DNA of 64,000 nt, taken from assembly GCF_041435495.1 (NCBI RefSeq), contig NZ_CP108644.1:1612001-1676000 (forward strand). Reading direction: 5' to 3'. Positions 1 through 15,731 of the stretch are shown in pieces. A model generated the notes under the pieces. That model made no database searches and was not told where the DNA came from. It was given only the letters and a program-made list of their open reading frames with translations. The position numbers were made by a program, and so were the translations under genes. This stretch comes from Streptomyces sp. NBC_01116. GTDB lineage: Bacteria; Actinomycetota; Actinomycetes; Streptomycetales; Streptomycetaceae. Position 1 is the stretch's first letter; every line of letters begins with the position of its first letter.

Positions 1-2447
1 AGCTGCGCCTTGATGACGGCCTGGACGAGGCGGTGGACCTGGATGGAGTTGGAGACCTGGTCGACCTTGGCGAGGGCGAACCGGCCGATCTCCCGGATGA
101 CCCGGCCGAGCACCAGCTTCTCCTGGAGCGAGGAGTCGTACGGCTTCAGCGCGTCGATCATCTCCTTGCTGTAGAGGAGGTTCGCGGAGATCGGTTCCGG
201 GGCGAAGAAGGCGCAGAGCTGGAGCAGCCGCACGGCGGCGGGCGAGCGCTCCTTGAGCCGGGCGATGGAGATGTTCCAGGTCGCGGCGACCGGTTCCGGA
301 TAGCCGGCCGGCTGGTTGAGGCCGAGGACCTGGGGCGCCTGCTGGGCGAGCTGTTCGAGGTAGGCGTCGACGGGGGTGGCGGTCTCCGCGATCCAGGCCG
401 CCGCCTGCTCCACGGCGAGCGGCAGGTCGCCCACGGCGGTCGCCACCTGGTCGGCGTCCTCGTCGCCGAGCCCCGGCGCCCGGCGCTGGAGGTGCTCGAT
501 CGACTCCTCGCGCAGGAAGACGTCCACGGGCAGCGCGTCGCCGTGCTGGGACCAGCTCTGGTTGCGGGAGGTCACCAGGATGTGGCCCGAGCCGCCCTGC
601 GGGAAGTAGCGGCGCAGCTGCTCGGGGTCGTCGGCGTTGTCGAAGACCAGCAGCCAGCGGTCCGAGGGCACGCCGCGCCGCAGCAGGTCGACGGCCTCCT
701 GGGAGGCGGCGGCCATGTCGTCGCCGCCCTGGGCGCCGAGCCGGACGGCGAGTTCGGCGAGCGAGGCGACCACGTCGTCGGGCTGCTCGGACGATATCCA
801 CCAGACCAGGTCGTAGTCGGCCATGAAGCGGTGCACGTACTCCAGCGCCACCTGGGTCTTGCCGACGCCGCCGAGTCCGTACAGGGTCTGCGGCTGCGGC
901 AGGACCACGGCCAGGCCGCCGCCGAGCTGGTCGCGCATCCGCTCCAGGACGAGCGAGCGGCCGGTGAAACCGGGGTTGCGGGGCGGCGCGTTCCAGATCC
1001 TCGGCACGGTGCCGGGGAAGCGGGGACCGGGCGAGAACCCGTCCGCCGCCTGCACCGGGCGGTCCAGGGCCCGCATCACGGCGGTGGTGGCGTGCACCTC
1101 GTCCAGCCGGAAGAGGTCGACGGGGTTGCGGTCGATGTACGGGGCGCTCAGGCGTACGTCCCCGACGCGCAGGGGGACCAGTCGGCCGCGGCCGCTGCCG
1201 ACGGCATCCGCGGCGGTCCGTTCCCACAGCTCGACCGCGCGCTGGGACTTCAGATAGGCGCTGGAGAGCAGCACCACGGTGCGGGCGGCGCTCGCGGCGG
1301 TGGCCTCCGCCTCCTCCGGGGGACGTTCGGCGGAGACGTCGCGCGGAACCACCCGGAAGCCGGCCCGGGTGAGAATCGATTCGAGCCAGTCGGCCCACAT
1401 CCGGTTCTCCGCCACGTAGCTGAGGAAGAGATCGGCGGGGAGGGCGGGCCTGCGCCGGGTGAAGGCGTCGCGGATCCGCAGGCGGACCTCCTCGCCGATC
1501 GGGGGCATCGAGGTGATCTCCCGGTCGGTGATGACCGCGGTGAGCCGTTCGAAGGCGGAGAGCAGCGAGTTGGCGAGCCCGGCCTCGTCGCCGAAGGTGG
1601 CGAGCGTCTCCTCGTAGGCGTAGTAGGGCCGGTAGGGGATCTCCACCGCGCCCCAGTAGGCGGTGAGTTCGTCGCTGGACAGATCGCGCGGCAGCCGGTC
1701 GAACTTCAGCCGGGCCAGCGCCCGCCCGGCGTCCGCCTTCTCCTTCTCGCCCTCGTCGATGCGCATCGGGACGGGGTAGAGGGCGATGGGGCGGCCGGTG
1801 TTGCGCTCGGCGATCTGGCGGGCGACGGAGGCCGCGCCGTCGATGGACTGGTCGCTGAGGGTGAAGCAGTCGACGAGCACGTCCGGGAGGTGGACGGTGC
1901 AGATGTCGGCGATGTCGCTGAGGCCGGTGCGGCTGTCGATGAGGACGTAGTCGTAGTTGGCCTTCATGTCGTCGCGCAGCGCGTCGAAGAAGTGGCCGCC
2001 GCCGAACCGGTCGTAGAAGTTGTCCCAGTCGAAGGTGGAGACGGTCGCGGAGTATTCGCGGTTCTGGCGTCCGGCGGAGACGAAGTCGAGTGTGCCGCCC
2101 TGCGGGAACTCCCAGCCGAGCGACTCCGGGGTCAGCGACACCGCGTGCGGCTGGATGCGGGCGTAGTCGCGGTGCCAGTCCTCGGCGCGCTGGGCGGGGC
2201 TGGTCGCGGCCCAGGCGTACTCGGTGATCAGGTCGATCACACCGGTGGTGGCGCCGAGGGTGGCCGGGTCGAGGAAGGGGTGGAAGAACCGGTGCAGCCC
2301 GGGGGCCTCCAGGTCCCAGTCGACGGCCAGGACGCGCTTGCCGTTGGCCGCGAGGATCCAGGCGGTGTTGGCGAGCGCCATGGTGCGCCCGGTACCGCCC
2401 TTGTACGAGTAGAAGGTGACGATGCGCCCGTCACGACCGGCACTCAT
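1..2447 (-). CDS. fxsT: FxsT-type multidomain protein (ParA-like ATPase, TIR, NB-ARC), 3' end outside window
   Basis: Reading right to left, 815 codons stay open to the window edge, so the C-terminus (in this family, TPR repeats) is missing. Residues 16-22 read KGGTGRT, a ParA/MinD-like deviant Walker A with Arg in place of the last Lys. A TIR-like segment starts near residue 340 (LFLSYVAENRMWADWLE). An NB-ARC/STAND ATPase follows, with Walker A GLGGVGKT near 525 and Walker B LLVFDNADD near 600, and then a winged-helix-like stretch ending VHRLVQAVIKAQ. The ATG overlaps the fxsC stop by 4 nt (ATGA). Family knowledge: this architecture is the FxSxx-COOH system tetratricopeptide protein. Its role is unknown; sensing or signalling is my inference from the STAND layout. 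No TTA codon was noticed. Confidence 0.85.
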   Translation of the reverse strand, partial: MSAGRDGRIVTFYSYKGGTGRTMALANTAWILAANGKRVLAVDWDLEAPGLHRFFHPFLDPATLGATTGVIDLITEYAWAATSPAQRAEDWHRDYARIQPHAVSLTPESLGWEFPQGGTLDFVSAGRQNREYSATVSTFDWDNFYDRFGGGHFFDALRDDMKANYDYVLIDSRTGLSDIADICTVHLPDVLVDCFTLSDQSIDGAASVARQIAERNTGRPIALYPVPMRIDEGEKEKADAGRALARLKFDRLPRDLSSDELTAYWGAVEIPYRPYYAYEETLATFGDEAGLANSLLSAFERLTAVITDREITSMPPIGEEVRLRIRDAFTRRRPALPADLFLSYVAENRMWADWLESILTRAGFRVVPRDVSAERPPEEAEATAASAARTVVLLSSAYLKSQRAVELWERTAADAVGSGRGRLVPLRVGDVRLSAPYIDRNPVDLFRLDEVHATTAVMRALDRPVQAADGFSPGPRFPGTVPRIWNAPPRNPGFTGRSLVLERMRDQLGGGLAVVLPQPQTLYGLGGVGKTQVALEYVHRFMADYDLVWWISSEQPDDVVASLAELAVRLGAQGGDDMAAASQEAVDLLRRGVPSDRWLLVFDNADDPEQLRRYFPQGGSGHILVTSRNQSWSQHGDALPVDVFLREESIEHLQRRAPGLGDEDADQVATAVGDLPLAVEQAAAWIAETATPVDAYLEQLAQQAPQVLGLNQPAGYPEPVAATWNISIARLKERSPAAVRLLQLCAFFAPEPISANLLYSKEMIDALKPYDSSLQEKLVLGRVIREIGRFALAKVDQVSNSIQVHRLVQAVIKAQ

Positions 2448-3784
2448 AGGTCCTCCGCTTCCGTGGCAGGGTCGTGCGGGTCGGGGATGTAGCTCGTACT
2501 GCCCATGGGGCCGGTCAGACGGGTCCGCTCGCCGGAGCCGCCGCCGGATCCGGGAGGGTAGGCCTTGGCGTGCTTGAGGTACTGCTGGGCGGCCACCTCG
2601 ACCACCTGGGGCAGGAGCTGGCCGAACGCCTCCATGGTGGGCACTCCCTTCGCCGCGGCACGGCACAGGGCCCGGCCCTGGCCCATCTTGACCGGCATGG
2701 TCGCCTCGAGCGTCTCGGTGAGCTCGCTCTCCGCCGCTCTGCTCTGGTGGTCGTCGCGGCTCCACGGCACGACCATGGTCACCCAGGGCCGGTTCTCGGC
2801 GTCGAAGGCGGCGAGCCTGCGGCGGTGGTCCTCGTCCCGGAGGGCCCAGCGGTCGACGAGCAGGATCTCGGGGGTGCTGGGCGGGGTCTTGCCGTCGTGC
2901 CGGTCCTCGTCGAACGAGGTGATGTGGGCCTGGTAGTTGAGCGAGCGGACCAGCTCCTCCGCCACATAGGCCAGCGGGCGCGCGGCGGCCGGGTAGTAGG
3001 GGTTCCAGTCCTGGGGGTGGTCGCCGTAGTGGTCGCTGTTGCGGCCCTCGGGCAGATCGTGGCGGGTGGGCGCGGCGATGGTGATCTGCATCGGCCGGGG
3101 GGCGCCGACTCCGCTGCTGGAAGAGCCGAAGGCGCTGGGCGCGAGGCGGTAGTCGACGGGCCGGCCGGTGTCGATGCGGACCGAGTCGGCGACGCTCACG
3201 ATGCGTTTGGCCAGTTCGTAGACGGCCCGTTCGTATTCCTCGGCGAAGAGTCTGAGCTTGATCAGGCCGTAGAGGCCGTCGCTGACGTACCGTTCCCCGA
3301 AATCACGGTGGTTGAACTGCAACCGCTCCGCGGAGCCGGGCAGTTGGCTCGGCGGCACCGGTACCCAGAGGGCCGGGACGATGGCCTCGGCGGGCTGGTT
3401 GGAGCGGGCGCGGTGGTGGATGGCGCGCTGTTCGAAGGCGTACCACTCCTTGCCGCACATCTCGCTGGCGAAGTAGCGCGGGGAGAACAGCGGGACGAAG
3501 ACCCGGCAGGTGGCGAGGACGTCGCCGAGCCGTTCCGACCAGCCCTCCCCGGAACGTATCTCCCGGTCCATGAAGCCCGCGGGCGCGCCCGCGGGTAAGT
3601 CGGTCATGGCCATCACATGGCCGCAGAGGTCCTGGAAAAGCCGTTCGACCCACATATCGGGGTCCGTGCCGCCGCCGTACCCCGGCGTATGGGCGTAACT
3701 CAGAAAGAAATACGGCCGATGGCCCACCGCTCGCTGTTGCGTCGATGCGTGCACACGACCCCCGTCCTGTGTGAGCACTCGCAT
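2444..3784 (-). CDS. fxsC: TIR-like protein FxsC
   Basis: The 446-residue protein has an N-terminal TIR-like domain (YFFLSYAHTPG at 25-35, then a motif around SEMCGKEW whose Glu sits where NADase TIR domains carry the catalytic Glu). A separate C-terminal domain characteristic of FxsC proteins covers roughly 230-420. Leu63 is encoded by TTA, so translation should depend on the bldA tRNA. The gene lies 74 nt downstream of fxsB and overlaps fxsT by ATGA. TIR-like and FxsC assignment follow the family pattern; NAD-cleaving activity is only possible, not shown. The start is the first ATG/GTG of the open frame, and a GTG nearer the TIR domain cannot be excluded. Confidence 0.85.
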   Translation of the reverse strand: MRVLTQDGGRVHASTQQRAVGHRPYFFLSYAHTPGYGGGTDPDMWVERLFQDLCGHVMAMTDLPAGAPAGFMDREIRSGEGWSERLGDVLATCRVFVPLFSPRYFASEMCGKEWYAFEQRAIHHRARSNQPAEAIVPALWVPVPPSQLPGSAERLQFNHRDFGERYVSDGLYGLIKLRLFAEEYERAVYELAKRIVSVADSVRIDTGRPVDYRLAPSAFGSSSSGVGAPRPMQITIAAPTRHDLPEGRNSDHYGDHPQDWNPYYPAAARPLAYVAEELVRSLNYQAHITSFDEDRHDGKTPPSTPEILLVDRWALRDEDHRRRLAAFDAENRPWVTMVVPWSRDDHQSRAAESELTETLEATMPVKMGQGRALCRAAAKGVPTMEAFGQLLPQVVEVAAQQYLKHAKAYPPGSGGGSGERTRLTGPMGSTSYIPDPHDPATEAEDL

Positions 3785-3858
3785 CCCGTAAGGAGGAAGG
3801 GAGTGGAAGCGAACTCATCATTCCGGAGCGGACCGCTTTCCACCCCCCTGCCGTTCGG

Positions 3859-6192
3859 TCATTCGAACGTCACTTTCTGGTCAGAGGAAAGGACGTTCGG
3901 CGCCTGACCGGACGGCGGGAAGCTCCTGCCGCGATTTTTCTCGGCCGCGCTCCGTGTTCCGCTGATCTCCTTGCGGACAGCGGAGATCAGCTGTTTACCG
4001 TCGACCGTCACCTCCGCCGCGTTTTCGATCTTGTCGAGGGCTTCCGGAACACCCGTGAGGAAGCGGGGGTCGTATAGTCCGAGCCCCGCCCGTTCGAATG
4101 TCTCGGCCAGCAGGCGGGAGAACGTCACGTGTTCGTTCCCCCAAGGCGTTCGATGTTCCCAGGTACCGTCCAAGGCGTAAAGATCCGTCACTTCACCGAG
4201 CGCCCGCAGTTTCGCCCGCCGGAATCCGCTCAGCAGGCCGAGGGCCAGCTCGTTCGCCCCGGCCGTCGCCCCGACGCCGAGCGCGCCGGGCCCGTGGCGC
4301 CCGGGTTCGGCCGCGCCGCCGGCCAGCGGGGTCACCGTGGTGAGCGTCCGGGCCGCCTCGGCGGCCTGGTCGGGCACGGCGTCGGCCAGCAGCGACCAGG
4401 CGTCGCCGATCCGGTGCGCCCAGGCGGCCGCCTCCTCCGCTTCGAGGCGGTCGGCCGGGGGAGCGCCGAAGCAGTCACGGAAGGGGTCGAGGTCGTCCAG
4501 CAGGAGGCCGGGGGCCGGTGCCTGCCGCAGGACGCGCACGGGACGCCAGTGCGGGCCCTCGGGGTCCTCGCGCGCGACGCGCTGCTCCGCGCCCGGCGGG
4601 TCCTCCTGGCGGCGGACGAGGAATCCGTCGCCCCCGGCACGCACCACCGCCGTTCCCCGCTCCTCCGGGGAGCCGAGGACCACGGTGCCGAGGGTGGGCA
4701 GGTGCAGGCTTCCGTTCCGGTACGCCACCGGCACGGGCAGGTCGAGTCCGGCACGGACGGCGGCGGCGGCCACGGTGGCGCCGAGCCGTTCGGCGGCCGG
4801 CCCCGTCATGCCGCGGCCCGCTTCGACGTCCTCCAGGGCGCCGAGCAGCCAGGTGCGGGTGTAGGGGTGGGCGAGCACCTCGTCGAGCGCCTCGGCGCCC
4901 GGGGGGTCCGCCTCCACCGCCGCCGCGAGCCGCCAGGCCTCGTCCCAGAGGTCTCCGCCCCGCCCGTCGAGGGTGTCGTGGAGGACCGCGAGCAGGGTGC
5001 GCGTCAGGTCCAGGTGGGCGGCGAGCAGTTCGTCCGGCGCCCGGACGGCGGGTGACTCGGTGGTCGCGGCCGTACGCTCCTCGATGCCCCGGATCAGGGC
5101 GGCGAGGTCGGCGCAGTAGACGGACGGGTTGTCGAACCCGCCGCCCGGGCCGCCGCCGGAGCGGTACCGGTGGGTGTAGAGCCCGCCGCCGCACGAGCGC
5201 ACGACGGGGCAGCGACGGCACGTCTCGCCGACTCCGGCCAGCCCGAGCTGCCGCGCCCGGACGCCGGGGTGGGCCGCGACCTCGTCGAAGGTGTTGTGGA
5301 AGACGTCGAACCCGGTGGTGGCGGCGCCCTCGTAGGCGCTCTTGAGCGAGTCGACCTGTTCCAGCGTCCCGTCGGTCTCGATGACGACGAGGTCGGTGGG
5401 GGCCAGACCGAGGGACTCGGTGAGGCTGGGGCCGCCGTTGAGGCTGGAGAGCACCGAGGCGAACATCCGGACCGGCATGGGACGGCCCTGGTCGCTCCAG
5501 CGGTCGAAGACCGTCAGGAGCCATTCGGCGTACGCGGTGGGCGAGCCGTCCGGGCGTGGCGGCGGTTCGTCCCAGGTGGCGTGCGGCAGCAGGAAGTCGA
5601 CGAGCGGGGGTTCGAGCGCGGCGAGAGCGTCGTGCACGGCCGTCGGATCGTTGTGGATGTCGACCGTGCAGAGCAGGCCGAGGTCCAGATGGCGGTAGCG
5701 CTCCTCGCGGAGCAGTCCGACCGCTCGCATCACCATCGGGTGGCTGCTGCGTCCGTTGGCGAACAGGCGGTGGCGGTCGTTGGCCGCGCGGTCCCCGTCG
5801 AGCGAGATCCCGACCCGGACGTGGAACTCGTCGAACAGGTCGAGGTAACGGGGGCTGAGCTGGACGCCGTTGGTATGGATCCTGAGGTCCAGCTCAGCGA
5901 TGCCGTTCAGAGCCGAGCCGAGCTCCTCGCAGACCCGTCGTAGTCGCGCGGGCCCCGCCAGGAGCGGTTCCCCGCCGTGCAGGATCACCGCGACGGAGGG
6001 AAGCGCATGAGTCCTCGCATGCTCGGCCAGGCGCCGGGCAGTCCAGGAAATCGCCTCGTCGGAGATGGTCCTCGGGCGGGTCGACCAGCTCTGATCTGCG
6101 TGTTCATAGACATAGCAGTGGTCACAGGCAAGATCACATCTGCTGTGCACTTTCAGAACGAATTCGCGGAAGGGGACCAGGGGTCCTGTCAT
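3859..6192 (-). CDS. fxsB: FxsB cyclophane-forming radical SAM/SPASM maturase with C-terminal HExxH-like domain
   Basis: The protein is 777 residues. The radical SAM cluster CxxxCxxC is Cys19, Cys23 and Cys26, followed by a SPASM-type Cys-rich region at about 325-365 (CRRCPVVRSC and a later C). Family knowledge: FxsB enzymes link the Phe ring of the FxS motif in FxsA to the beta-carbon of the Ser two residues later, making a three-residue cyclophane. Residues ~390-720 resemble the HExxH protein that often accompanies these clusters (DDLDPFRD; LALGLLSGFRRAKLRALGEV near 645-665; TPWGN after it). The position expected for HExxH reads SGFRR, so the metal site looks lost. The gene follows fxsA by 30 nt and precedes fxsC by 74 nt. 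Confidence 0.9.
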   Translation of the reverse strand: MTGPLVPFREFVLKVHSRCDLACDHCYVYEHADQSWSTRPRTISDEAISWTARRLAEHARTHALPSVAVILHGGEPLLAGPARLRRVCEELGSALNGIAELDLRIHTNGVQLSPRYLDLFDEFHVRVGISLDGDRAANDRHRLFANGRSSHPMVMRAVGLLREERYRHLDLGLLCTVDIHNDPTAVHDALAALEPPLVDFLLPHATWDEPPPRPDGSPTAYAEWLLTVFDRWSDQGRPMPVRMFASVLSSLNGGPSLTESLGLAPTDLVVIETDGTLEQVDSLKSAYEGAATTGFDVFHNTFDEVAAHPGVRARQLGLAGVGETCRRCPVVRSCGGGLYTHRYRSGGGPGGGFDNPSVYCADLAALIRGIEERTAATTESPAVRAPDELLAAHLDLTRTLLAVLHDTLDGRGGDLWDEAWRLAAAVEADPPGAEALDEVLAHPYTRTWLLGALEDVEAGRGMTGPAAERLGATVAAAAVRAGLDLPVPVAYRNGSLHLPTLGTVVLGSPEERGTAVVRAGGDGFLVRRQEDPPGAEQRVAREDPEGPHWRPVRVLRQAPAPGLLLDDLDPFRDCFGAPPADRLEAEEAAAWAHRIGDAWSLLADAVPDQAAEAARTLTTVTPLAGGAAEPGRHGPGALGVGATAGANELALGLLSGFRRAKLRALGEVTDLYALDGTWEHRTPWGNEHVTFSRLLAETFERAGLGLYDPRFLTGVPEALDKIENAAEVTVDGKQLISAVRKEISGTRSAAEKNRGRSFPPSGQAPNVLSSDQKVTFE

Positions 6193-6222
6193 TCCGCCAT
6201 TCTAGTCACTGCTGACGCCTGC

Positions 6223-6429
6223 TCAGAGAGCCGAACTGAAAGTGGAAATCCGGGTCGGCCGGGCCGTTGCCGCACCGGAGACGCGGCTGAGCTTCCTGGC
6301 GGCTTCGGCGCTGCGGACGTCGGTCGCCGCGAGGGTTGCGCGGGTCTTCGCGGGAGCGAAGGCGGGGGTGTTTCCGTAGGTCTTCACGGCCGTCCTAGGG
6401 GGATCCTGAAGGGGTCTGTTTCCGGACAT
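6223..6429 (-). CDS. fxsA: FxsA precursor peptide ending FSSAL (FxSxx-COOH RiPP)
   Basis: This small ORF, immediately upstream of fxsB, ends in F-S-S-A-L followed by TGA, exactly the FxSxx-COOH signature. The upstream part is a plausible leader with basic and alanine-rich segments. The expected modification is a Phe-to-Ser cyclophane within the last five residues. From ATG 6429 it is 68 residues but no Shine-Dalgarno precedes that codon. An in-frame GTG at residue 15 has AGGA six bases upstream and would give 54 residues, a more usual length, so the shorter start may be the real one. No protease or exporter gene is visible beside it. Whether the product is matured or secreted is unknown. Confidence 0.85.
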   Translation of the reverse strand: MSGNRPLQDPPRTAVKTYGNTPAFAPAKTRATLAATDVRSAEAARKLSRVSGAATARPTRISTFSSAL

Positions 6430-6732
6430 TGAAACGCCGCCGGATTGCGTGTCATCACACGGCCCGGCACGCGAACTTTACTACCGCGGGGACCCCTTCA
6501 CCTGCCGGCGGAGGGCCTTCATCATCTGTGTTGTAAAAATTGAAACACGCCATCCGTTCGGCCGCCCGGGTGGGCGGGGAAACCGCCGCACGACCGGCGG
6601 GCCGAGGAGGCGCCTTCCCCGCCGCCGGCCGGTGCCGGTGGGAGGCGTCCCGCCGGCGGCGGAACCGCCCACGGACGTGCCGCGCACGCGAGTCGCGCGC
6701 CCCCCGCCGGGAGGCTCCAGCGGTGCGGCCGT
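6430..6732. other. 303-nt intergenic region upstream of fxsA
   Basis: This gap should hold the fxs promoter and the terminator of the next gene. It contains a G/C-rich inverted-repeat stretch (about 6600-6665) suited to termination on the minus strand, and an unusually A/T-rich patch at 6528-6546 that could be part of a promoter. A 32-codon minus-strand frame (6455-6553) has no ribosome-binding site and mixed codon usage, so I do not call it. I could not define a -35/-10 pair with confidence. Confidence 0.4.
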
Positions 6733-7431
6733 TCACTCGTTCACCGGTCCCTCGCCGGGGACGCTGTGTCCGGCGCGGGCGCCGCGCACACAGTCCAGGA
6801 CGCGTTCGTGGCTGTCGCCCACGACGTCCGTGACCCGCACCCGGATGTGGAGCGCGTCGACCAGCTCGACGCACCGCTGCGAGAACACCCCGACCGGCAC
6901 CGTGTCGTAGTTCCCCGTGCCGACCAGCGGAAAGCCCGCCCCGAAGTCGATGAGCTGGTAGTCCCGCCCCACCGAGAGGCCGGCCGCCGCCAGGGTGGAC
7001 ACGACGTCCGGGACCGCTACCCAGGGCGCGCCCGCCCCACCGGACCCGCCGCGCAGCACCACGCGGCACTCCCAGCTCTCGACGACGGCGACGTGCTGGC
7101 CGCCGTTCAGTATCCCCACGCGCCACGCGGGCTCCCCCTCGGCGAGGAGCCCCTTGCGCCAGGAGCCGCGCGAGCCGAGGTAGGGATGGACCGTACGGGC
7201 GTACTGCGCCCGGGCCAGGACGGCGCCGGCCGCCACGGCCAGCAGGCTCCCGAGCGCCTCCGTGTCCAGCAGTCGCAGGCGCCAGGGCCAGTCGTCCCGG
7301 GAGCCGGGCGCGACATTGGCCCGCACGGCCTCCCACAACAGGATCAGGACCAGGACGGCGAGCAGCGCCAGCGGAGCGGTGAAGAGCAGCGGGCTGCGGC
7401 GGATCCGGCGCTGGCCGTCCTGGAGCGGCAC
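6733..7431 (-). CDS. Two-helix membrane protein, unknown function
   Basis: The protein is 232 residues from GTG 7431. Two hydrophobic segments lie near the N-terminus (LLFTAPLALLAVLVLILL at about 15-32, and LGSLLAVAAGAVLARAQ at about 58-74). A soluble C-terminal domain follows, with GGQHVAVVESWECRVVL and a FGAGFPLVGTGNYDTVPVG segment. I do not recognise the family. The start is uncertain: GTGs at 7497 and 7521 are also in frame, but codons upstream of 7431 lose the G/C third-position bias. The gene is transcribed away from the SLATT-like gene at 7732, so they share a divergent intergenic region. Two helices plus a soluble domain is also the plan of SLATT-type effectors, but there is no sequence proof of relationship. 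Confidence 0.6.
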   Translation of the reverse strand: MPLQDGQRRIRRSPLLFTAPLALLAVLVLILLWEAVRANVAPGSRDDWPWRLRLLDTEALGSLLAVAAGAVLARAQYARTVHPYLGSRGSWRKGLLAEGEPAWRVGILNGGQHVAVVESWECRVVLRGGSGGAGAPWVAVPDVVSTLAAAGLSVGRDYQLIDFGAGFPLVGTGNYDTVPVGVFSQRCVELVDALHIRVRVTDVVGDSHERVLDCVRGARAGHSVPGEGPVNE

Positions 7432-7731
7432 AGCGTCGTCCGCCCCTCCGCCCCCGTTCCCCTCGATGGCCCCTCCCTCGCCCGGAGGTGATCGCACCCG
7501 TCGAAGAGGGCCACAACTCACCTGCTGCACCGTGCAGTTGACCAACCTTGCCACAGCCGCGCCGACCGAGGAAGAACGTCCGCACGGAAGTGGCCGAACC
7601 CCGTCGTGGCGGCCCCCCGGGGAGCCGGGACGGTCTTGTCGCCCCCGGCGCTCCCCCTTACTCTCGTGGCCCCGGGCGGGGCAGGCGCCACGACCGGCCG
7701 GGTCATACGACAACTGCAGACGGAGGCGTCC

Positions 7732-8658
7732 ATGACGGCGTTGCCTGAGCCGCTGAGATCCATGGTCTTCAGGAACGATGACCTGCCGGCGCTGTTCCAC
7801 CACACGGACGCGGTCGCCGTGGCCCGCCAGCGCGAGGCCGTGAACACCACCCGGGCGCAGCTCGCGCTGCTCGTGGCGGGCACGGTGCCCGCGGCGCTGC
7901 CGTGGCACACCGAGGACGGCCCGGCGGCCCGCGCCCTGTACGGCGCCGCGGTCCTGGCCTACCTGGGCGTGCTCTTCGCGACCTTCCTCGCCTCCCACCG
8001 CAAAGCAAAGTCGCACTGGCAACTGAACCGCTCCGCGGCCGAGTTCATCAAGTCCAACTGCTGGCGCTACGCGGTGCACGGCGCACCGTTCGACAGCTCG
8101 TCCGAGCACCCGGAGGCGCTGTTCGCCAATCGTCTGGAGGACGGCCTCCAGGAGTTGCGGAAAGTGGGCTGGGCCGACCCGCGCGAGGAACTGCCGGATT
8201 CCGGCGGCCTCATCACGGAGTCCATGCGCGCGTTACGGAACAAGGCCTACACGGTCCGCAAGGAGACGTACGTACGGGACCGGCTCATCGAACAGCGGCG
8301 CTGGTACCGCAGACGTCAGCAGGCCTCCCGGCGCGGGGCGGTCCTGTGGTCGGGCGCCATCGTCGCGCTGACGCTCCCGGCGCTGGCCCTGAGCGTGTTC
8401 CAGACCTTCGGAGTGGGGCGCTCGTTCGGGCTGACCGGGGCGTTCTCCGCTGCGGCGGCGGCCTGTCTCACCTGGAACGAGATGCGCCGGCACCATCCGC
8501 TGATCTCGGCGCACTCGCTGGTGGAGAAGGACCTGGAGTCGATGCAGGCCGCCATGGAGACCACCCTCACCGAGCGGCACTGGCCGGCGGCGGTGTTCGA
8601 GACCGAGCGGATCGTGTCGCCCGAGCACACCGACTGGCTGGTCAGACACCGCGTGTGA
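7732..8658 (+). CDS. DUF4231 / SLATT-domain membrane protein
   Basis: The protein is 308 residues, from an ATG preceded by GGAGG seven bases away. It has hydrophobic pairs near 45-85 and 205-245 separated by a charged helical region with basic runs (EQRRWYRRRQQASRR). The layout and C-terminal segment (SLVEKDLESMQAAMETTLTE) match DUF4231/SLATT proteins. Family knowledge: SLATT is a predicted two-transmembrane, pore-forming effector found with nucleotide-sensing SLOG or nucleotide-generating SMODS proteins in conflict systems. Leu168 is a TTA codon (8233-8235), implying bldA dependence. A SLOG-like gene (8809-9288) sits convergently downstream, which supports the assignment. The toxic-effector role is inference. 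Confidence 0.7.
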   Translation: MTALPEPLRSMVFRNDDLPALFHHTDAVAVARQREAVNTTRAQLALLVAGTVPAALPWHTEDGPAARALYGAAVLAYLGVLFATFLASHRKAKSHWQLNRSAAEFIKSNCWRYAVHGAPFDSSSEHPEALFANRLEDGLQELRKVGWADPREELPDSGGLITESMRALRNKAYTVRKETYVRDRLIEQRRWYRRRQQASRRGAVLWSGAIVALTLPALALSVFQTFGVGRSFGLTGAFSAAAAACLTWNEMRRHHPLISAHSLVEKDLESMQAAMETTLTERHWPAAVFETERIVSPEHTDWLVRHRV

Positions 8659-8690
8659 GCCGGAGAGGCCGCCGCACGGGGCCGGAAGCC

Positions 8691-8801
8691 CCTCCGTACA
8701 GCCTGTTCGGTGAGCGCCTCCCGTACGGACCGTTCGGTGAGCGCCGTCCTCCCGTACGGACCGTTCCGTGAGCGCCTCCCGTACGGACCGTTCGGCGAAC
8801 G
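8691..8801. repeat. Four imperfect tandem copies of a ~27-bp unit
   Basis: The unit CCTCCCGTACGGACCGTTCG (first 20 bases; it continues GTGAGCG) occurs at 8691-8716 (diverged), 8717-8743, 8744-8774 (with a 4-bp insertion) and 8775-8801. Each unit carries the palindrome CCGTACGG. The array fills the gap between the convergent SLATT-like and SLOG-like genes. It may act as a bidirectional terminator or be a slippage-generated array. It has no spacers, so it is not CRISPR. Confidence 0.85.
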
Positions 8802-8808
8802 CCTCCGG

Positions 8809-9288
8809 TCAGCCGCGCAGCACTCCGTCGCGCCAGATCACGGTGACGGGGCGGCCCAGGGCGCGGGCGTACGTCACGATGTCGCCCGTGCCGCCGAGGC
8901 CCCGCGCCGGGAGGCCGTCCCAGACCGCGAGCAGCCGGTCGCAGTGGTCGGCGATGTAGGCGCCCGCCGCGTAGTACGCCTCGTCGGTGGAGTGCGGGAA
9001 GTCGAGCCGGACCTCCCGCACCGCGCGCCCCTTGAGCGTCCGGTAGCGGGCGAGGTCGACGGCGTTCTCGAAACAGTCCTCGTAGTCGCCGCTGGGGATC
9101 ACGGCGGTCAGTTCGGCTCCGCAGGCGAGGGCGAGGTCGGCGAAGAGCTGGTCGGCGCCGACCGCCAGGCTGGAGAGTGCGTGCGTCGTGCCGTCGAGTC
9201 CGCACAGGGCGGCCCGCAGCCCCGCGAGCACATGGGCCTCGGCCTCGGCGGGGATGGAGCGGTGACCGGTCACTCCGATGCGATGCAC
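8809..9288 (-). CDS. SLOG-like nucleotide-sensor protein
   Basis: The protein is 159 residues from GTG 9288, chosen because an AGGGGG motif lies about ten bases upstream and the conserved region begins at once (VHRIGVTGHRS). The pattern fits a Rossmann-like SLOG domain: an early GHR turn, GADQLFADLALACGAEL with VIPSGDYEDCF, and AYIADHCDRLLAVWDG followed by GLGGTGDIVTYARALGRPV. Family knowledge: SLOG domains bind nucleotides or nucleotide-like ligands and are often paired with SLATT effectors. The gene is convergent with the DUF4231 gene across a tandem repeat. The ligand is unknown. Confidence 0.65.
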   Translation of the reverse strand: MHRIGVTGHRSIPAEAEAHVLAGLRAALCGLDGTTHALSSLAVGADQLFADLALACGAELTAVIPSGDYEDCFENAVDLARYRTLKGRAVREVRLDFPHSTDEAYYAAGAYIADHCDRLLAVWDGLPARGLGGTGDIVTYARALGRPVTVIWRDGVLRG

Positions 9289-9417
9289 GGATCTGCTACC
9301 CCCTTTGCCAGCGGAGCACGGCGGAGGGCGCGCCCGCCCCGTCGCTCCGCCCCCGTCGCCCCGTAGCGGCGACCCGTCGTGGCGACATCCTCTCAAGAGC
9401 TCCCCGGCGAACGGGAG

Positions 9418-9443
9418 CCCCCGTCCGGAATTCCGGACGGGGG
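9418..9443. terminator. Perfect 26-nt palindrome downstream of sprB
   Basis: Two 13-nt arms meet with no loop at GAATTC (left arm CCCCCGTCCGGAA). It lies 45 nt past the sprB stop on the minus strand and is the likely terminator. It could also stop transcription coming from the other side. Confidence 0.7.
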
Positions 9444-9487
9444 CACGTATGTACGGACGGTTCCGTCACCGGCCGGTGTGGGACCGG

Positions 9488-10555
<1,068 letters not shown>

Positions 10556-10562
10556 TCACACA

Positions 10563-10606
10563 CGCCTCCGGCCCCGGGAGCCGTGGGGCTGCCGGGGCCG
10601 GAGGCG
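10563..10606 (-). terminator. 15-bp stem-loop after the DUF1684 gene
   Basis: The stem CGCCTCCGGCCCCGG pairs with its complement across a 14-nt loop that has a small inner stem. It starts 12 nt beyond the stop of the DUF1684 gene (minus strand) and fits a terminator. Confidence 0.75.
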
Positions 10607-10617
10607 CCTTGCGCGGG

Positions 10618-11439
10618 TCAGGCGTCGATCCGGTTCCGCTCCCCCGCAGGGACCGCCACGGGAAGCGTGTTGCCCGGGGGCGGGAAGGGGCAGATGAAGT
10701 GATCGGCGAAGGCGCACGGCGGCAGCAGCGCGCGGTTGAGGTCGACGCTGACGCTGCCGTCGGCGGCGGGCGCGCCGGGCCGCAGGAAACGGAAGCGGTA
10801 GCTGCCGTTCCCGCTGGTCGCGTCGGAGAAGACGGCCCACAGCGACCCGTCGGGTTCGACCGCGACCTGAAGCGTGTGCTCGTCGCCGTCGACCGTGAAG
10901 GCGATCTCCCCGCCGAGCCCGAGACCGCGCTCGACCCCGTCCGCGTTGGCCACCTGAACGGTCCGGTCCCCACCGTAGGGACGGAAGGTCCCCGGCAGTG
11001 CCCAGCGGGGGTCGTACGGGGTGGCCTCGATGGTCGAGAAGGCGTGCCGGGCCGGTGATCCCGGGTCGAAGTCCCGTACCGCCCACAGCCCTTCGCGGCG
11101 GAGCACCACGAGCCGCCGATCCCCCTGCGCCACCCGGGAGTCGTCGATCGGTCCGCGGTCCGCGCCGAGCACGACCTCGCCGGTCAGCGGCTTGCCGTCG
11201 ACCACGAGGCCGTCCTCGGCGGCGGCCGTGAGGACCACCTCGTCGCCCCTCTCGCGCCAGTGCCCCGGCACGGCCGGAATTCGCCCTTCCGGGTAGTCGG
11301 AGAGCCAGTGGGTTCCGGTCAGGGAGAGAGGGCCGTACGGGGCGGCGACGGCGACGACGCGCCCTTCGTGCCACCGCTGCCAGTCCTGTGCGGCGTCCGG
11401 CCCGCCGCCCTGCTCCTGCTGCTGTGCGTCCGTGCTCAT
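10618..11439 (-). CDS. DUF1684 family protein
   Basis: The protein is 273 residues with no signal peptide or membrane helix. The C-terminal signature LLPPCAFADHFICPFPPPGN with following basic/acidic residues is diagnostic of DUF1684. Beta-rich segments precede it (WLSDYPEGRIPAVPG, YDPRWALPGTFRPYGG). The biochemical role is unknown. It lies 4 nt beyond the stop of the flavin monooxygenase gene 11444-12736 and is transcribed in the same direction, but its start (11439) is separated from that stop by only those bases, so it could be read through as the last gene of the organosulfur operon. Confidence 0.85.
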   Translation of the reverse strand: MSTDAQQQEQGGGPDAAQDWQRWHEGRVVAVAAPYGPLSLTGTHWLSDYPEGRIPAVPGHWRERGDEVVLTAAAEDGLVVDGKPLTGEVVLGADRGPIDDSRVAQGDRRLVVLRREGLWAVRDFDPGSPARHAFSTIEATPYDPRWALPGTFRPYGGDRTVQVANADGVERGLGLGGEIAFTVDGDEHTLQVAVEPDGSLWAVFSDATSGNGSYRFRFLRPGAPAADGSVSVDLNRALLPPCAFADHFICPFPPPGNTLPVAVPAGERNRIDA

Positions 11440-11443
11440 GCGG

Positions 11444-12736
11444 TCAACCTTTCCATACCGGCTCCGGCAGGCCGAGGTGCGACCGCAGGGTGGAGCCGGT
11501 GTATTCGGTGCGGAATGCTCCGCTCTCCTGGAGGAGCGGGACGACCCGGTCGACGAAGTCGTCCAGGCCGCTCGGGGTGAGATGGGGTACGAGGATGAAA
11601 CCGTCGGCGGCCCGTTCGTCGACGAACGCGGTCAGCTCCGCCGCGACGGTCCGGGGCGAGCCGATGAACGACTGCCGGGTGGTCGTCTCGATGACCGTCT
11701 GCCTCAGGGACAGCCCCTTGGCCTCGGAGATCGCGCGCCAGCGGGCGACGATCGCGAAGGGGTCGCCGTGCCGGACCCGGCCCTGGGTGATCTCGGAGTC
11801 GGGGACGGGGTCGATGGCGGGGAGCGGCCCGTCGGGGTCGTACGCGGAGAGGTCGGTGCCCCAGATCTGCTCGGCGGTGAGGATCGCGTTCTGCGGCGAG
11901 ACCTGCTGCCGGCGGATCCCGGCGGCGCGCTCCTGGGCCTCGGCGTCGGTGTCGCCGGTCACCACGGTGACGCCCGGCATGATCTTCAGGTCGCCGGGCT
12001 CCCTGCCGTACGCCGCGAGCCGCGCCTTGACGTCGGCGTAGAAGTCGCGGCCCGCCTCCAGGGTGCCGTGCCGGGTGAAGATGACGTCGGCGGCCGAGGC
12101 GGCGAACTCCCGGCCCTCGTCGGAGTCCCCGGCCTGGATGACCACCGGGTGGCCCTGCGGCGGGCGCGGGACGGTGAACTCCCCGGAGATCGCGAACTGC
12201 GGCCCCTCGTGGGCGAAGGGCCGTGACGTGCCGTCGGGCGTCCAGGAGTCCCACAGCTCGCGGGCGGTGGCGACGAACTCGGCGGCCCGGGTGTACCGGT
12301 CGGCCCGGTCCAGATAGCCGCCCCGGCGGAAGTTCTCCCCGGTGAAGGCGTCGGACGAGGTCACCACGTTCCAGGCGGCCCGGCCCGCGCTGAGGTGGTC
12401 GAGGGTGGCGAGCCGGCGGGCGAGTTCGTAGGGCTCGTTGAAGGTGGCGTTGACGGTGGCGGCGAGGCCGAGCCGGTCGGTGACGGCGGCCAGCGCGTTC
12501 AGCACGGTCAGCGACTCGGGCCGGCCGACCACGTCGAGGTCGTGGACGCGGCCGTTGTGCTCGCGCAGCCGCAGCCCTTCGGCGAGGAAGAAGAAGTCGA
12601 ACTTCCCACGCTCGGCCGTCCTCGCCAGCTGCTCGAAGGAGGAGAAGTCGATCTGGCTGCGGGAGCGGGGATCGGCCCACACGGTGGTGTTGTTGACGCC
12701 GGGGAAATGGGCGGCGAGGTGCATCGGACGGGGCAC
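11444..12736 (-). CDS. NtaA/SnaA/DszA-family flavin-dependent monooxygenase
   Basis: A 430-residue LLM-class (bacterial luciferase-like) oxidoreductase. Diagnostic segments are FDFFFLAEGLRLREHNG, DHLSAGRAAWNVVTS, GHPVVIQAGDSDEGREFAA and a C-terminal GFILVPHLTPSGLDDFVDRVVPLLQ. Such enzymes use reduced FMN from a partner reductase to oxidise sulfonates, sulfones, aminopolycarboxylates or similar compounds. GTG 12736 is chosen because GGAGG lies seven bases upstream and it follows the preceding stop by 2 nt, so the two monooxygenases are coupled. An ATG four codons later is an alternative. Position beside two ABC binding proteins and a Cys-type leader suggests an organosulfur substrate (inference). 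Confidence 0.85.
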   Translation of the reverse strand: MPRPMHLAAHFPGVNNTTVWADPRSRSQIDFSSFEQLARTAERGKFDFFFLAEGLRLREHNGRVHDLDVVGRPESLTVLNALAAVTDRLGLAATVNATFNEPYELARRLATLDHLSAGRAAWNVVTSSDAFTGENFRRGGYLDRADRYTRAAEFVATARELWDSWTPDGTSRPFAHEGPQFAISGEFTVPRPPQGHPVVIQAGDSDEGREFAASAADVIFTRHGTLEAGRDFYADVKARLAAYGREPGDLKIMPGVTVVTGDTDAEAQERAAGIRRQQVSPQNAILTAEQIWGTDLSAYDPDGPLPAIDPVPDSEITQGRVRHGDPFAIVARWRAISEAKGLSLRQTVIETTTRQSFIGSPRTVAAELTAFVDERAADGFILVPHLTPSGLDDFVDRVVPLLQESGAFRTEYTGSTLRSHLGLPEPVWKG

Positions 12737-12738
12737 GG

Positions 12739-13815
12739 TCAGACCTCCTTCGCGACGGCCCTGGCGGCGGCGTAGCGGCTCGCGGGACGCACGAGCCCCA
12801 GGTGTTCGCGCAGGGTGCCGCCGGGATGGAAGGTGCGGAAGAGGCTGCGGTGCTGGAGGAGGGCCACGGTGCCGTTGACGATCCTTTCGAGGTCGCGTTC
12901 GGGAGTGATGGGCGTGAGGTGGAAGCCGTCGGCCGCGCCCGCCCGGTGCCACTGGGCGATGAGGTCGGCGAGGTCGACCGGGCCGCCCCGGAAGTAGGTG
13001 CCGCGCCCGGCGAGCCGCGGCCCGCTCTCCAGACCGGGTTCCGGCGCGGTCTCCATGTCGCCGAGGTCGACGGTGAGGGCGACCAGGACCCGCAGTGCCC
13101 CGGGGTCGCGCCCGTGGGCGGCTGCCTTGGCCCGCACCTCGTCGCGGACGGCGGCCGCCTGCTCGGGTGTGGTGGCCCGGATGTGGACGACGTCGGCGTG
13201 CCGGGCGGCCGCCTCGCGGGCCGGGCCGGTGGTGGCGTCGATGACGGTGACGGGACGGCCCTGCGGCGGGCGCGGCACGATGGCGGGGCCCCGTACGGAG
13301 AAGGTGGCGCCCTCGAAGTCGACGTAGTGCAGTTTGTCCCGGTCGATGAAGCGGCCGGTGGCGGTGTCCCTGATCTCGGCGTCGTCCTCCCAGCTGTCCC
13401 ACAGCCGCCCGGAGACGTCGGCCACTTCCCCGGCCTCCTGCCACAGGGCGGCGGGCGGTGCCGCGGTGCGTCTGCCGAAGAGCCGTGCCTCCGCCTCGGT
13501 GGTGGAGACGTCCGCGCTCCAGCCGGCGCGGCCCCGGCTCACCCAGTCCAGGGTGGCGACGGCGGAGGAGACGTGGAAGGGCTCGGTGTGGGTGGTGGTG
13601 ACGGTCGGGACGAGGCCGATGCGGTCGGTGGCGGGCGCGACGCGGGCCAGGACGGCGAGCGCGTCGAGTCCGGGGCGGGCGAACGAGTCGCCGAGGGTGA
13701 CGTAGTCGAGCGCGCCGTCCTCGGCGAGCCGGGCGAGCCGGAGGTAGTGCCCGGCGTCGTAGTGCGGCGGGCCGCCGATCTCGGCGGCCAGGTGGAGGGA
13801 TGTACGTGCGGACAT
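12739..13815 (-). CDS. LLM-class flavin-dependent oxidoreductase
   Basis: The protein is 358 residues and a paralogue-like relative of the next gene but shorter. Family features are SLHLAAEIGGPPHYDAGHY at the start, TDRIGLVPTVTTTHTEPFHVSSAVATLDWVSRGRAGW in pieces around 75-110, and GRPVTVIDATTGPAREAAARHADVV in the middle. It probably works with the same reduced flavin pool on a related substrate. The ATG has AGAGG seven to eight bases upstream. It is the first of the two coupled monooxygenase genes and lies 127 nt downstream of a binding-protein gene on the same strand, with a hairpin in between. Confidence 0.8.
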   Translation of the reverse strand: MSARTSLHLAAEIGGPPHYDAGHYLRLARLAEDGALDYVTLGDSFARPGLDALAVLARVAPATDRIGLVPTVTTTHTEPFHVSSAVATLDWVSRGRAGWSADVSTTEAEARLFGRRTAAPPAALWQEAGEVADVSGRLWDSWEDDAEIRDTATGRFIDRDKLHYVDFEGATFSVRGPAIVPRPPQGRPVTVIDATTGPAREAAARHADVVHIRATTPEQAAAVRDEVRAKAAAHGRDPGALRVLVALTVDLGDMETAPEPGLESGPRLAGRGTYFRGGPVDLADLIAQWHRAGAADGFHLTPITPERDLERIVNGTVALLQHRSLFRTFHPGGTLREHLGLVRPASRYAAARAVAKEV

Positions 13816-13882
13816 GCGGGGACCTCTCGGGTCGACGGTCGGTCGGGGCTGCGCGAGGCCGTTCACCGTTGCCCCTGCCGCT

Positions 13883-13918
13883 CCCCGGCCGCACGCCGGA
13901 CGGGGCGCGCGGCCGGGG
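13883..13918 (-). terminator. Candidate hairpin after the binding-protein gene
   Basis: A 10-bp stem CCCCGGCCGC pairs across 16 nt. It sits 25-60 nt beyond the stop of the lipoprotein gene and before the monooxygenase pair, so it may attenuate rather than fully end transcription. Confidence 0.45.
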
Positions 13919-13942
13919 TGGCGGGCCCGGTGGGCCCCGGCG

Positions 13943-14917
13943 TCAGCTCTTCGTCTTCGGCAGGCCGGGCGGGTTGATCTCCGACTTCTCCACGGCCTCG
14001 CCGCTGAGCCCCCAGCGCTCCAGGACCTTGGCGTACGAGCCGTCCTCGACGATGTGGTCGATCGCGGCGGCGTACGCCTCGACCAGGCCACTGCCCTTCT
14101 TGGTGGTGGCGGCGATCTTGCCCTGGAGGCCGCCGCCGGCTCCGGAGATCTGTCCGGCGATCTCGCTCTGGCCGGACGTCGCCACGTGGTAGGCGGCGGA
14201 CGGGCTCGGGCCGAGGTGGGCGTCGATGCGGCCCGACTGGAGGGGGAGGTAGTAGTCGTTCTCCTTCTGGAAGTACTTGATCTCCACGGGCTCGCGCCCG
14301 GCCTTGACGTTCTCCTCGCTCCACTCGACGAGGATCTTCTCCTGGTTGGTGCCGGAGGAGACCGAGATCGTCTTGCCGGCGACGTCGGCGGGGCCCTTCA
14401 CCTTCCAGCCGGAGCCCTTCTTCGCCTCGAAGGCGATGTTGTCGAGCCGGTAGGTGGCGAAGTCGTACTTCTCCTTGCGCTCCTCGGTCACGGTGACGTT
14501 GGAGAGGACCCCGTCGAACTTGGAGCTGTCCAGGCCGACGAAGAGGTTCTCCCAGGAGACCTGCTCGAACTCCGGCTTCAGACCGAGGGTGTCGGCGACG
14601 AGGGTGGCGATGTCGATCTCGGAACCGATCCGGGTCTTGTCGTCGGTGGCGTAGAAGCCGAGCGGCGGCACGGCGTCCGCGCTGGCCCCGAACCTCAGCG
14701 TGCCGCGCTCGCGGATCGCCTCGGGGACGAGTGCGGCGACGGCGTCGGCCTTCTTGCCCCTGAGGCGGTCCTGGTCGGGGCTGGTGTTGATCCCGGTGTC
14801 CTTCTTGTCCTTGGACGCCGCCACGTCGGCGGAGACGTCGGGGTCGCCGCAGGCGGTGAGCAGTCCGATGGCGGTGAGTGTGGCGAGGGCGGCGGTGATG
14901 CTGCGGCGGATGGACAC
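13943..14917 (-). CDS. Amino-acid-type ABC transporter substrate-binding lipoprotein
   Basis: The protein is 324 residues. The signal sequence ends with lipobox LTAC (IGLLTACGDP), so the mature protein is a membrane-anchored lipoprotein. The body is a family 3 solute-binding protein: LRFGASADAVPPLGFYATD, GSEIDIATLVADTLGL, LDSSKFDGVLSNVTVTEERKEK and the C-terminal YAKVLERWGLS. The ligand is probably a small amino-acid-like molecule; a sulfur compound is inferred from context. GTG 14917 has GGAG seven bases upstream. It is followed on the minus strand by the monooxygenases and preceded by the ATPase and permeases, all co-directional. Confidence 0.9.
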   Translation of the reverse strand: MSIRRSITAALATLTAIGLLTACGDPDVSADVAASKDKKDTGINTSPDQDRLRGKKADAVAALVPEAIRERGTLRFGASADAVPPLGFYATDDKTRIGSEIDIATLVADTLGLKPEFEQVSWENLFVGLDSSKFDGVLSNVTVTEERKEKYDFATYRLDNIAFEAKKGSGWKVKGPADVAGKTISVSSGTNQEKILVEWSEENVKAGREPVEIKYFQKENDYYLPLQSGRIDAHLGPSPSAAYHVATSGQSEIAGQISGAGGGLQGKIAATTKKGSGLVEAYAAAIDHIVEDGSYAKVLERWGLSGEAVEKSEINPPGLPKTKS

Positions 14918-14957
14918 CTGCGTACTCCTTGCGGATGAGCGATGCATGGGGGTTGTG

Positions 14958-15731
14958 TCAGAGAACCTTGGAGAGGAACGCCCGGGTGCGCTCCTGGGTG
15001 GGGCGGTCCAGCAGGTCGGCGGGCGGGCCCTGCTCGACGATGCGGCCCTCGTCCATGAAGACGACGGTGTCGGCGACCTCGCGGGCGAAGCCGATCTCAT
15101 GGGTGACGACGATCATCGTGGTGCCGCCGTGCGCCAGGTCCTTGATGACGTCGAGGACCTCGCCGACGAGTTCCGGGTCCAGTGCGGACGTCGGCTCGTC
15201 GAAGAGCAGGAGCTTGGGCTCCAGCGCCAGGGCGCGGGCGATGGCGACGCGCTGCTGCTGGCCGCCGGAGAGCTGTCCGGGGTAGGCCGCCGCCTTCTCG
15301 GCGAGTCCGACCCGCTCCAGCAGCTTCTCCGCCGCCGCGACGGCCTCCTTGCGGGGGCGGCGCAGCGCGGAGACGGGCGCCTCGATGATGTTCTCCAGCA
15401 CGGTGAGGTGCGGGAAGAGGTTGAAGTTCTGGAAGACGAAGCCGATCTTGGTGCGCTGGCGCAGCACCTCGCGCTCGCGCAGCTCGTAGAGCTTGTCGCC
15501 GTCCCTGCGGTAGCCGACCAGGGTGCCGTCCACGCTGATCCAGCCCTGGTCGACCTTCTCCAGGTGGTTGATGGTGCGCAGCAGGGTGGACTTGCCGGAG
15601 CCGGAGGGGCCGAGGACGACGGTGACCTCGCCGGGCCGCACCGAGAGGTCGATGCCGCGCAGCACCTCCAGGGAGCCGAAGCTCTTGTGCACGGAGCGGA
15701 TCTCGACCATGGCATCGCTGGGTGCGCTCAT
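14958..15731 (-). CDS. Polar amino-acid-type ABC transporter ATP-binding protein
   Basis: The protein is 257 residues with complete ATPase motifs: Walker [12 protein letters not shown]-loop [10 protein letters not shown], signature LSGGQQQR, Walker [13 protein letters not shown] and H-switch VVTHE. It belongs to the GlnQ/HisP subfamily. The ATG overlaps the upstream permease stop (ATGA), so the two are translationally coupled. It is the only ATPase in the locus and so probably serves both permeases. A second ATG 6 codons later is possible but has less support. Confidence 0.92.

Follow-up and report, generated by a model that had tools for sequence, protein, structure and literature searches.

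The window, by which we mean the whole stretch of 64,000 nucleotides from Streptomyces sp. NBC_01116 analyzed here (contig NZ_CP108644.1, positions 1,612,001 to 1,676,000), begins with an FxSxx-COOH locus. Its genes for a ribosomally synthesized and post-translationally modified peptide (RiPP), a radical SAM/SPASM maturase, a TIR protein and a STAND protein stand beside conserved alpha/beta-hydrolase, SLATT and SLOG genes and, in relatives, an AAC(3)-type acetyltransferase gene. We favor, at a probability of only about 0.4, the reading that this enlarged system is an intracellular alarm and not the source of a secreted antibiotic. The enlarged gene set, the split between two TIRs and the occurrence of FxsC in VMAP-MoxR neighborhoods are new here. 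The proposed function is not, because the RiPP-STAND link and the idea of "a peptide toxin or signal" were published by Kaur et al. (2020), who associated FxSxx peptides with a radical SAM enzyme and an AP-ATPase and reported an inactive MinD/ParA domain (PMC7159879; this and the other articles are cited from the parts of their text available to us). A preliminary description of this DNA had proposed an internal signal or immune-type trigger in place of a secreted antibiotic and had thought this function undescribed, which it is not. The internal signal itself is the better-supported reading, since the linked block has no exporter, the near-invariant peptide end occurs with STAND and TIR proteins, and SLATT and SLOG genes are linked to it.

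According to our in silico analysis, fxsA, fxsB, fxsC and fxsT follow one another on the minus strand, each above a curated NCBIfam cut-off (six models: TIGR04268, TIGR04269, NF040587, TIGR04276, NF040588 and NF040586). L005 denotes a fetched stretch that contains this same locus and whose left part lies beyond the window.

6223-6429, minus strand: fxsA, precursor peptide of 68 aa (TIGR04268, 29.1 bits, cut-off 28)
6226-6240, minus strand: FSSAL codons at the FxsA C-terminus, predicted Phe-Ser cyclophane site (from the translation)
3859-6192, minus strand: fxsB in its FxsBH form, 777 aa, radical SAM/SPASM maturase with a C-terminal inactivated HExxH domain (TIGR04269, 604 bits, cut-off 370; NF040587, 527 bits)
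2444-3784, minus strand: fxsC, 446 aa, TIR and FxsC C-terminal domain (TIGR04276, 264 bits; NF040588, 238 bits; Pfam TIR_2)
3446-3448, minus strand: codon of FxsC Glu113, putative TIR NADase glutamate (placed by alignment to the TIR motif)
1-2447, minus strand: fxsT, codons 1-815 of 1,310 in the window, continuing to window position -1485 (whole gene L005:10515-14447; NF040586, 1049 bits, cut-off 300)

The spacing of these genes (30 bp between fxsA and fxsB, a 4-bp overlap of fxsC and fxsT) suggests that they are co-transcribed as one operon. As previously noted, the precursor ends exactly in FSSAL (the translation reads ...RISTFSSAL) and is followed by a radical SAM/SPASM FxsB, a TIR protein FxsC and a ParA/TIR/NB-ARC protein FxsT; Pfam divides FxsT into ParA-like, TIR (a pseudo-TIR, as shown below), NB-ARC, DUF7779 and TPR domains. 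The cluster is complete, as claimed, in the genome but not in the window, where fxsT is truncated. The nearest FxsC among the matches listed is 97% identical and comes from Streptomyces rubiginosohelvolus.

The SLATT and SLOG genes lie beyond the right edge of the stretch covered by the preliminary description and were overlooked there.

7762-8658, plus strand, opposite to the operon: SLATT_3-SLATT_1 protein, a predicted effector with two transmembrane segments (Pfam SLATT_3, 124.6 bits; SLATT_1, 115.7 bits)
8809-9288, minus strand: stand-alone SLOG-fold (YpsA/DprA-like) protein, 159 aa, GTG start (assigned on the SLOG fold)
6733-7431, minus strand: protein with a hydrophobic N-terminus (by eye), between fxsA and SLATT, with no Pfam and no PADLOC match

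The last of these is probably accessory; its family occurs in five compared loci (our own and four others) and was called only in close relatives. The gene just beyond fxsT encodes a conserved alpha/beta-hydrolase, in which Ser, Asp and His motifs are present. Within fetched stretches that do not exceed about 19 kb, in which some relatives' genes were called with a home-made codon score, 41 loci have FxsB, FxsC and FxsT. The hydrolase was found in 40 of them, SLATT in 30, SLOG in 29 and the AAC(3)-type acetyltransferase, which our own locus lacks, in 26. One of the 12 loci without SLOG in the stretch (G078) has it 13 kb away. None of the NCBIfam models that name the FxSxx-COOH system matches the scanned hydrolase, AAC, SLATT or SLOG proteins.

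A search of 121 genomes of the genus gave 33 SLATT matches with at least 43% identity. FxsBH or FxsC is found no more than 16 kb away from 31 of them; the other two are G028, at a contig break, and G057, which has SLATT and SLOG alone at the conserved site. Three more matches, at 30-32% identity, lie elsewhere. By genome, SLATT and FxsBH occur together in 32, SLATT only in 1 (G007, where FxsC occurs with a short FxsB), FxsBH only in 10 and neither in 78 (Fisher p 2e-19, a value that overstates independence because the species are related). SLOG matches at 51% or more are near fxs in 31 of 34 cases; G028, G057 and G005, whose locus has decayed, make up the remaining three. SLOG proteins at 34-44% identity are common elsewhere. 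For the hydrolase (52% or more), 41 of 48 matches are near fxs, and the other seven are G028, G005 and five orphans. More telling than the Fisher value is that the pairing is kept with different flanking genes (MreB-type in L030, L032, L033 and L036; others in L013 and L035) and where the operon is inverted relative to SLATT-SLOG (L025, L027, L034, L037, L041, L042, L045 and L047). The G005 locus (L062:7236-8438) decayed as a unit: what is left of its hydrolase gene adjoins the final 42 codons of fxsT and a remnant of SLOG. In a genome of another family (L082), a SLATT gene (SLATT_1, 56 bits) precedes an FxsA-like open reading frame (ORF) ending in FSSHL and genes for FxsB, AAC, two FxsC-like proteins, FxsT and the hydrolase. 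Pairwise distances of FxsB, FxsC, hydrolase, AAC, SLATT and SLOG track those of FxsT (r 0.83-0.95, 0/500 permutations each), a correlation that vertical descent alone would also produce.

The peptide end was analyzed in 44 FxsBH loci, our own and 43 fetched ones. They were drawn from 46 matches (the partial G028 and 45 that reach at least 540 bits), with G028 and G033 (internal stop, contig edge) outside the set. An ORF ending in F-x-S-[ASGC]-[LIV]-COOH near the fxsB start, from 1.2 kb upstream to 0.25 kb inside, was found in 38/44 loci against 0/3,766 control windows from the same loci, so that FxsA is not a chance ORF; the looser end F-x-[ST]-x-x was found in 22/3,766 control windows. Residues -2 and -1, which were free in the search pattern, are A/S/G/C and L/V/I in 38/38, while the invariance of F and S/T is largely by construction because these were preselected in the first FxsA search. 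The FxsA end is near-invariant across loci and not diversifying. The other six loci end in FSSSVG, FQSSIG, FDAAL, FDAAI and, twice, FNSEIGG plus a tail. The FDAAL and FDAAI precursors, upstream of fxsB in L033 and L035, keep the Phe and have Ala for Ser at -3. The two FNSEIGG ORFs (L049 and L050) lie upstream of, and overlap, genes for fused FxsB-type maturases (L049:5975-10707 and L050:5911-10487). A different NB-ARC-TPR gene follows in each, HaaT/AfsR-like in L049 and matched in L050 by size and start only, which makes a second RiPP-STAND pairing.

The maturase has the CX3CX2C motif in 44/44 loci, and FxsB is predicted to make a Phe-Ser crosslink at the FxsA end. The HExxH of its C-terminal domain is intact in only 4/44 (L008, L038, L039 and L044) and in the FxsB of L082; ours reads LLSGFRRAKL at the aligned place, and NF040587 is entitled "inactivated beta-hydroxylase extension". 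The 14 called L005 genes lack HExxH, and its sole occurrences in window positions 1-16000 are in two frames on the plus strand, antisense to fxs genes. Our FxsB lacks the intact HExxH of aKG-HExxH peptide beta-hydroxylases, and beta-hydroxylation is therefore not expected in this locus. ChlBH-type cyclophane makers likewise fuse a radical SAM core to a C-terminal HExxH-type domain (PMC12636437), but our FxsB has lost the hydroxylase motif and its cyclophane product is a predicted one.

The two TIRs differ at one position. Six residues past a conserved Ser, the alignment has Glu in 47/49 FxsC proteins, which we take to be the TIR NADase glutamate of the motif S-x-x-C-x-x-E. The same position in FxsT is Val, Leu or Ile in 45/50 and Glu in 0/50; the next residue is Trp in 48/49 FxsC and 44/50 FxsT. 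The ParA-like P-loop of FxsT reads KGG[TV]GRT in 50/50, with Arg at the usual Lys, and the NB-ARC P-loop is intact in 46/50. The Glu kept in FxsC only, the replaced ParA Lys and the intact NB-ARC P-loop suggest that FxsT is a STAND scaffold and FxsC the enzyme. In the PDB, the TPRs of FxsT match those of the kinesin-light-chain type. Mean identity between close pairs of 41 FxsT proteins is 0.933 for DUF7779, 0.912 for the ParA-like domain, 0.889 for NB-ARC, 0.819 for the pseudo-TIR and 0.753 for the TPRs. The TPRs may therefore read a changing outside trigger while the peptide binds a conserved domain, or they may simply be less constrained.

FxsC also occurs as a module elsewhere. In L076 and L077 it forms, at 68-69% identity, the C-terminal end of one long TPR protein, in which a vWA-like segment is visible by eye without a Pfam hit. 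L078 has an ORF with FxsC next to a VMAP-M2 protein (227 bits). Two plasmid records show this arrangement as well: in NZ_CP109474.1 the FxsC gene is preceded by genes for VMAP-M2 (120.5 bits) and an AAA ATPase, and in NZ_CP108290.1 it lies beside VMAP-C (108.6 bits) and an annotated MoxR-family ATPase. L076 and NZ_CP109474.1 are apparently the same replicon and thus not independent. Since the effector position of vWA proteins is in their C-terminal parts (PMC7159879), the C-terminal place of FxsC in TPR proteins of VMAP-MoxR neighborhoods supports, by analogy, a role as effector. FxSxx peptides occur with some VMAP-MoxR-vWA ternary conflict systems (PMC7159879), and some such systems have FxsC ending a TPR protein. 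None of VMAP, MoxR and vWA is among the Pfam hits of the scanned neighbors of our locus, a few called neighbors being unscanned.

In the proposed alarm, FxsB would tie Phe to Ser at the FxsA end, and the crosslinked peptide would fix the threshold at which FxsT, the STAND protein, responds. FxsT could then recruit FxsC as a TIR NADase, whose product, a nucleotide messenger, would be read by the SLOG protein, and SLATT would turn this signal into membrane damage. The hydrolase and the AAC(3)-type enzyme might trim or cap the peptide, which is the weakest step. We infer crosslink formation, peptide binding by FxsT, NADase activity, the messenger and SLATT opening, and likewise a role in phage defense or programmed hyphal death. 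SLATT has been predicted to be a nucleotide-responsive pore former (PMC7159879), and a SLATT protein is needed for DRT10 anti-phage defense (PMC12632851). A more specific version, rather unlikely as it stands, is that the RiPP cyclophane is the license or safety catch of FxsT, that the pseudo-TIR adaptor drives a separate TIR NADase with SLOG-to-SLATT output, and that the trigger is phage damage to peptide maturation. If true, this would be, to our knowledge, the first immune circuit with a RiPP as internal receptor ligand and not as weapon. If the alarm reading is right, modified peptides would join the ligands of bacterial nucleotide-binding leucine-rich repeat (NLR)-like proteins, and bacteria would have a split between scaffold TIR and enzyme TIR. 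The linkage of FxSxx to sensor, TIR, SLOG and SLATT genes makes the purpose of the peptide directly testable.

Several observations weigh against the alarm. SLATT is missing in 11/41 loci and SLOG in 12/41, so that both are dispensable or replaceable, and G057 keeps SLATT and SLOG without the operon at that site. Beyond SLOG and the hydrolase there is no defense island; the genes there encode protease, DUF1684, luciferase-like, transporter, phospholipase and lipase proteins. PADLOC matched none of FxsC, SLATT, SLOG and the hydrolase; it matched FxsT in part to PDC-M28B and FxsB weakly to viperin (pVip). Two of the 49 FxsC proteins have Gln in place of the Glu, and the predicted structure of FxsC is poor (predicted local distance difference test score, pLDDT, 59.5), with no fold partner at E ≤ 0.001. 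Finally, the FxsT TPRs diverge fastest of its domains, which fits poorly with TPRs that read only a constant peptide.

The alternative that survives best, though we consider it unlikely, is a developmental or metabolic switch. An AfsR-like STAND protein would then adjust differentiation or antibiotic production through the peptide, its ligand inside the cell, and TIR, SLOG and SLATT would serve in regulation or stress and not in killing. FxsT indeed has weak similarity to AfsR (41.5 bits), the AfsR/HaaT-like NB-ARC-TPR gene stands beside a related fused FxsB in L049 (with a similar-size gene in L050), one clade has a fixed chromosomal site, and the peptide end is near-invariant. Yet the system is patchy, FxsBH-type FxsB being found in 42/121 genomes by listed matches or 33/121 by the NF040587 cut-off, with decayed and partial loci. 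FxsC has retained the TIR Glu and forms the end of proteins in VMAP-MoxR neighborhoods, two of them in plasmid records, and the Pfam hits of FxsT include no DNA-binding domain.

FxsC matches (61 listed rows, or 59 once the split pairs G002 and G090 are merged) lie within 16 kb of FxsBH-type FxsB in 43/59 cases, and seven more adjoin a short FxsB, as read from coordinates. FxsT is above the NF040586 cut-off in 113/121 genomes and FxsB above its own in 76/121, so that at least 37 genomes have an FxsT-family protein and no FxsB over the cut-off. The linkage of fxsC and fxsT to fxsA and fxsB in most genomes, on which the preliminary description had staked its reading, thus stands for FxsC and fails for FxsT as it was worded.

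A toxin and antidote inside the cell, with the modified peptide as toxin and FxsT, FxsC, hydrolase and acetyltransferase as controllers, is distinctly less probable. AAC(3)-type enzymes acetylate amines and could mask the peptide in this way, L023 keeps only FxsA, FxsB and the hydrolase of the system, and Kaur et al. propose "a peptide toxin or signal" (PMC7159879). However, the protein arm persists without the peptide, as FxsT alone in L052 and as FxsC and FxsT without FxsB in L053, L054 and L056, and AAC(3) is absent in 15/41 loci.

SLATT, SLOG and the hydrolase could be mere syntenic bystanders at a shared chromosomal site. In one clade all three indeed occur at a fixed site, together with protease, DUF1684 and luciferase-like genes. 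Five of the 48 hydrolase matches are orphans in which no fxs remnant was found (the gene-called G022 and G032 among the genes of that site), and the SLATT/SLOG orphan of G057 is also there. This seems very unlikely to us, as the genes stay beside fxs in the other contexts given above and after inversion, SLATT, AAC and hydrolase adjoin fxs in another family too, and SLATT is away from fxs in just 2/33 cases, one of them a contig break. We give hardly any weight to an ordinary exported RiPP natural product with the STAND protein as pathway regulator: a precursor and a radical SAM maturase in one operon are the usual RiPP layout, and a major facilitator superfamily (MFS) transporter gene (143 bits; L005:3712-5301) and an ABC-2-like membrane gene (29.3 bits, below cut-off; family in 12 compared loci) lie beyond the hydrolase, but the linked block has no exporter, the peptide end is near-invariant, and the linkage with FxsC, SLATT and SLOG is tight. 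That no exporter or protease accompanies the cluster, as had been stated, is accurate for an exporter in the block; the MFS gene is about 5 kb from the hydrolase, the hydrolase itself adjoins fxsT, and alpha-lytic-type proteases flank the locus.

Compared with known systems, our locus has the features of the NCBIfam FxSxx-COOH system: a precursor with C-terminal F-x-S-x-x, an adjoining FxsB, and FxsC and FxsT in the operon. The FxSxx systems of Kaur et al. share the FxSxx precursor, the radical SAM-SPASM enzyme, an AP-ATPase with TIR and the actinobacterial host, and their related standalone systems also have the inactive MinD/ParA domain; unlike ours, in which it is inactivated, those FxSxx systems have an active zincin-type metallopeptidase (HExxH) in their core (PMC7159879). 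The available text of that article does not name acetyltransferase, hydrolase, SLOG or SLATT as FxSxx parts, although its Figure 3B or source data may show SLATT or the acetyltransferase. Thoeris also combines a TIR protein with a SLOG-fold protein, but in ThsA a SIR2 or transmembrane part is fused to SLOG, whereas our SLOG protein stands alone. DRT10 likewise has a SLATT protein as the likely output of an immune module (PMC12632851), but no reverse transcriptase domain is among the Pfam hits of our scanned neighbors, and our SLATT occurs with SLOG and TIR. The literature searched, without supplements and most subscription papers, showed no experimental study of the FxSxx system and nothing that joins it to SLATT or SLOG; there, FxSxx peptides are known from sequence, and a tested function was not found. 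In the available part of a fungal paper, FxSxx-COOH is merely listed as an annotation (PMC12734244).

Among the wider neighbors, MFS transporter, HxlR regulator, ABC-2-like membrane protein and phospholipase A2 genes lie beyond the hydrolase (L005:3712-7905). Genes with an alpha-lytic protease prodomain and trypsin domain flank the locus (window 9488-10387 and L005:8057-9340) in one chromosomal context only. In L053:6886-14532 and L056:8433-17395, FxsC and FxsT adjoin a further TIR gene and a shorter FxsT-like ORF; PADLOC assigns the extra TIR gene of L053 to TIR-TM, and transposase-like ORFs are seen nearby by eye in L053/L056.

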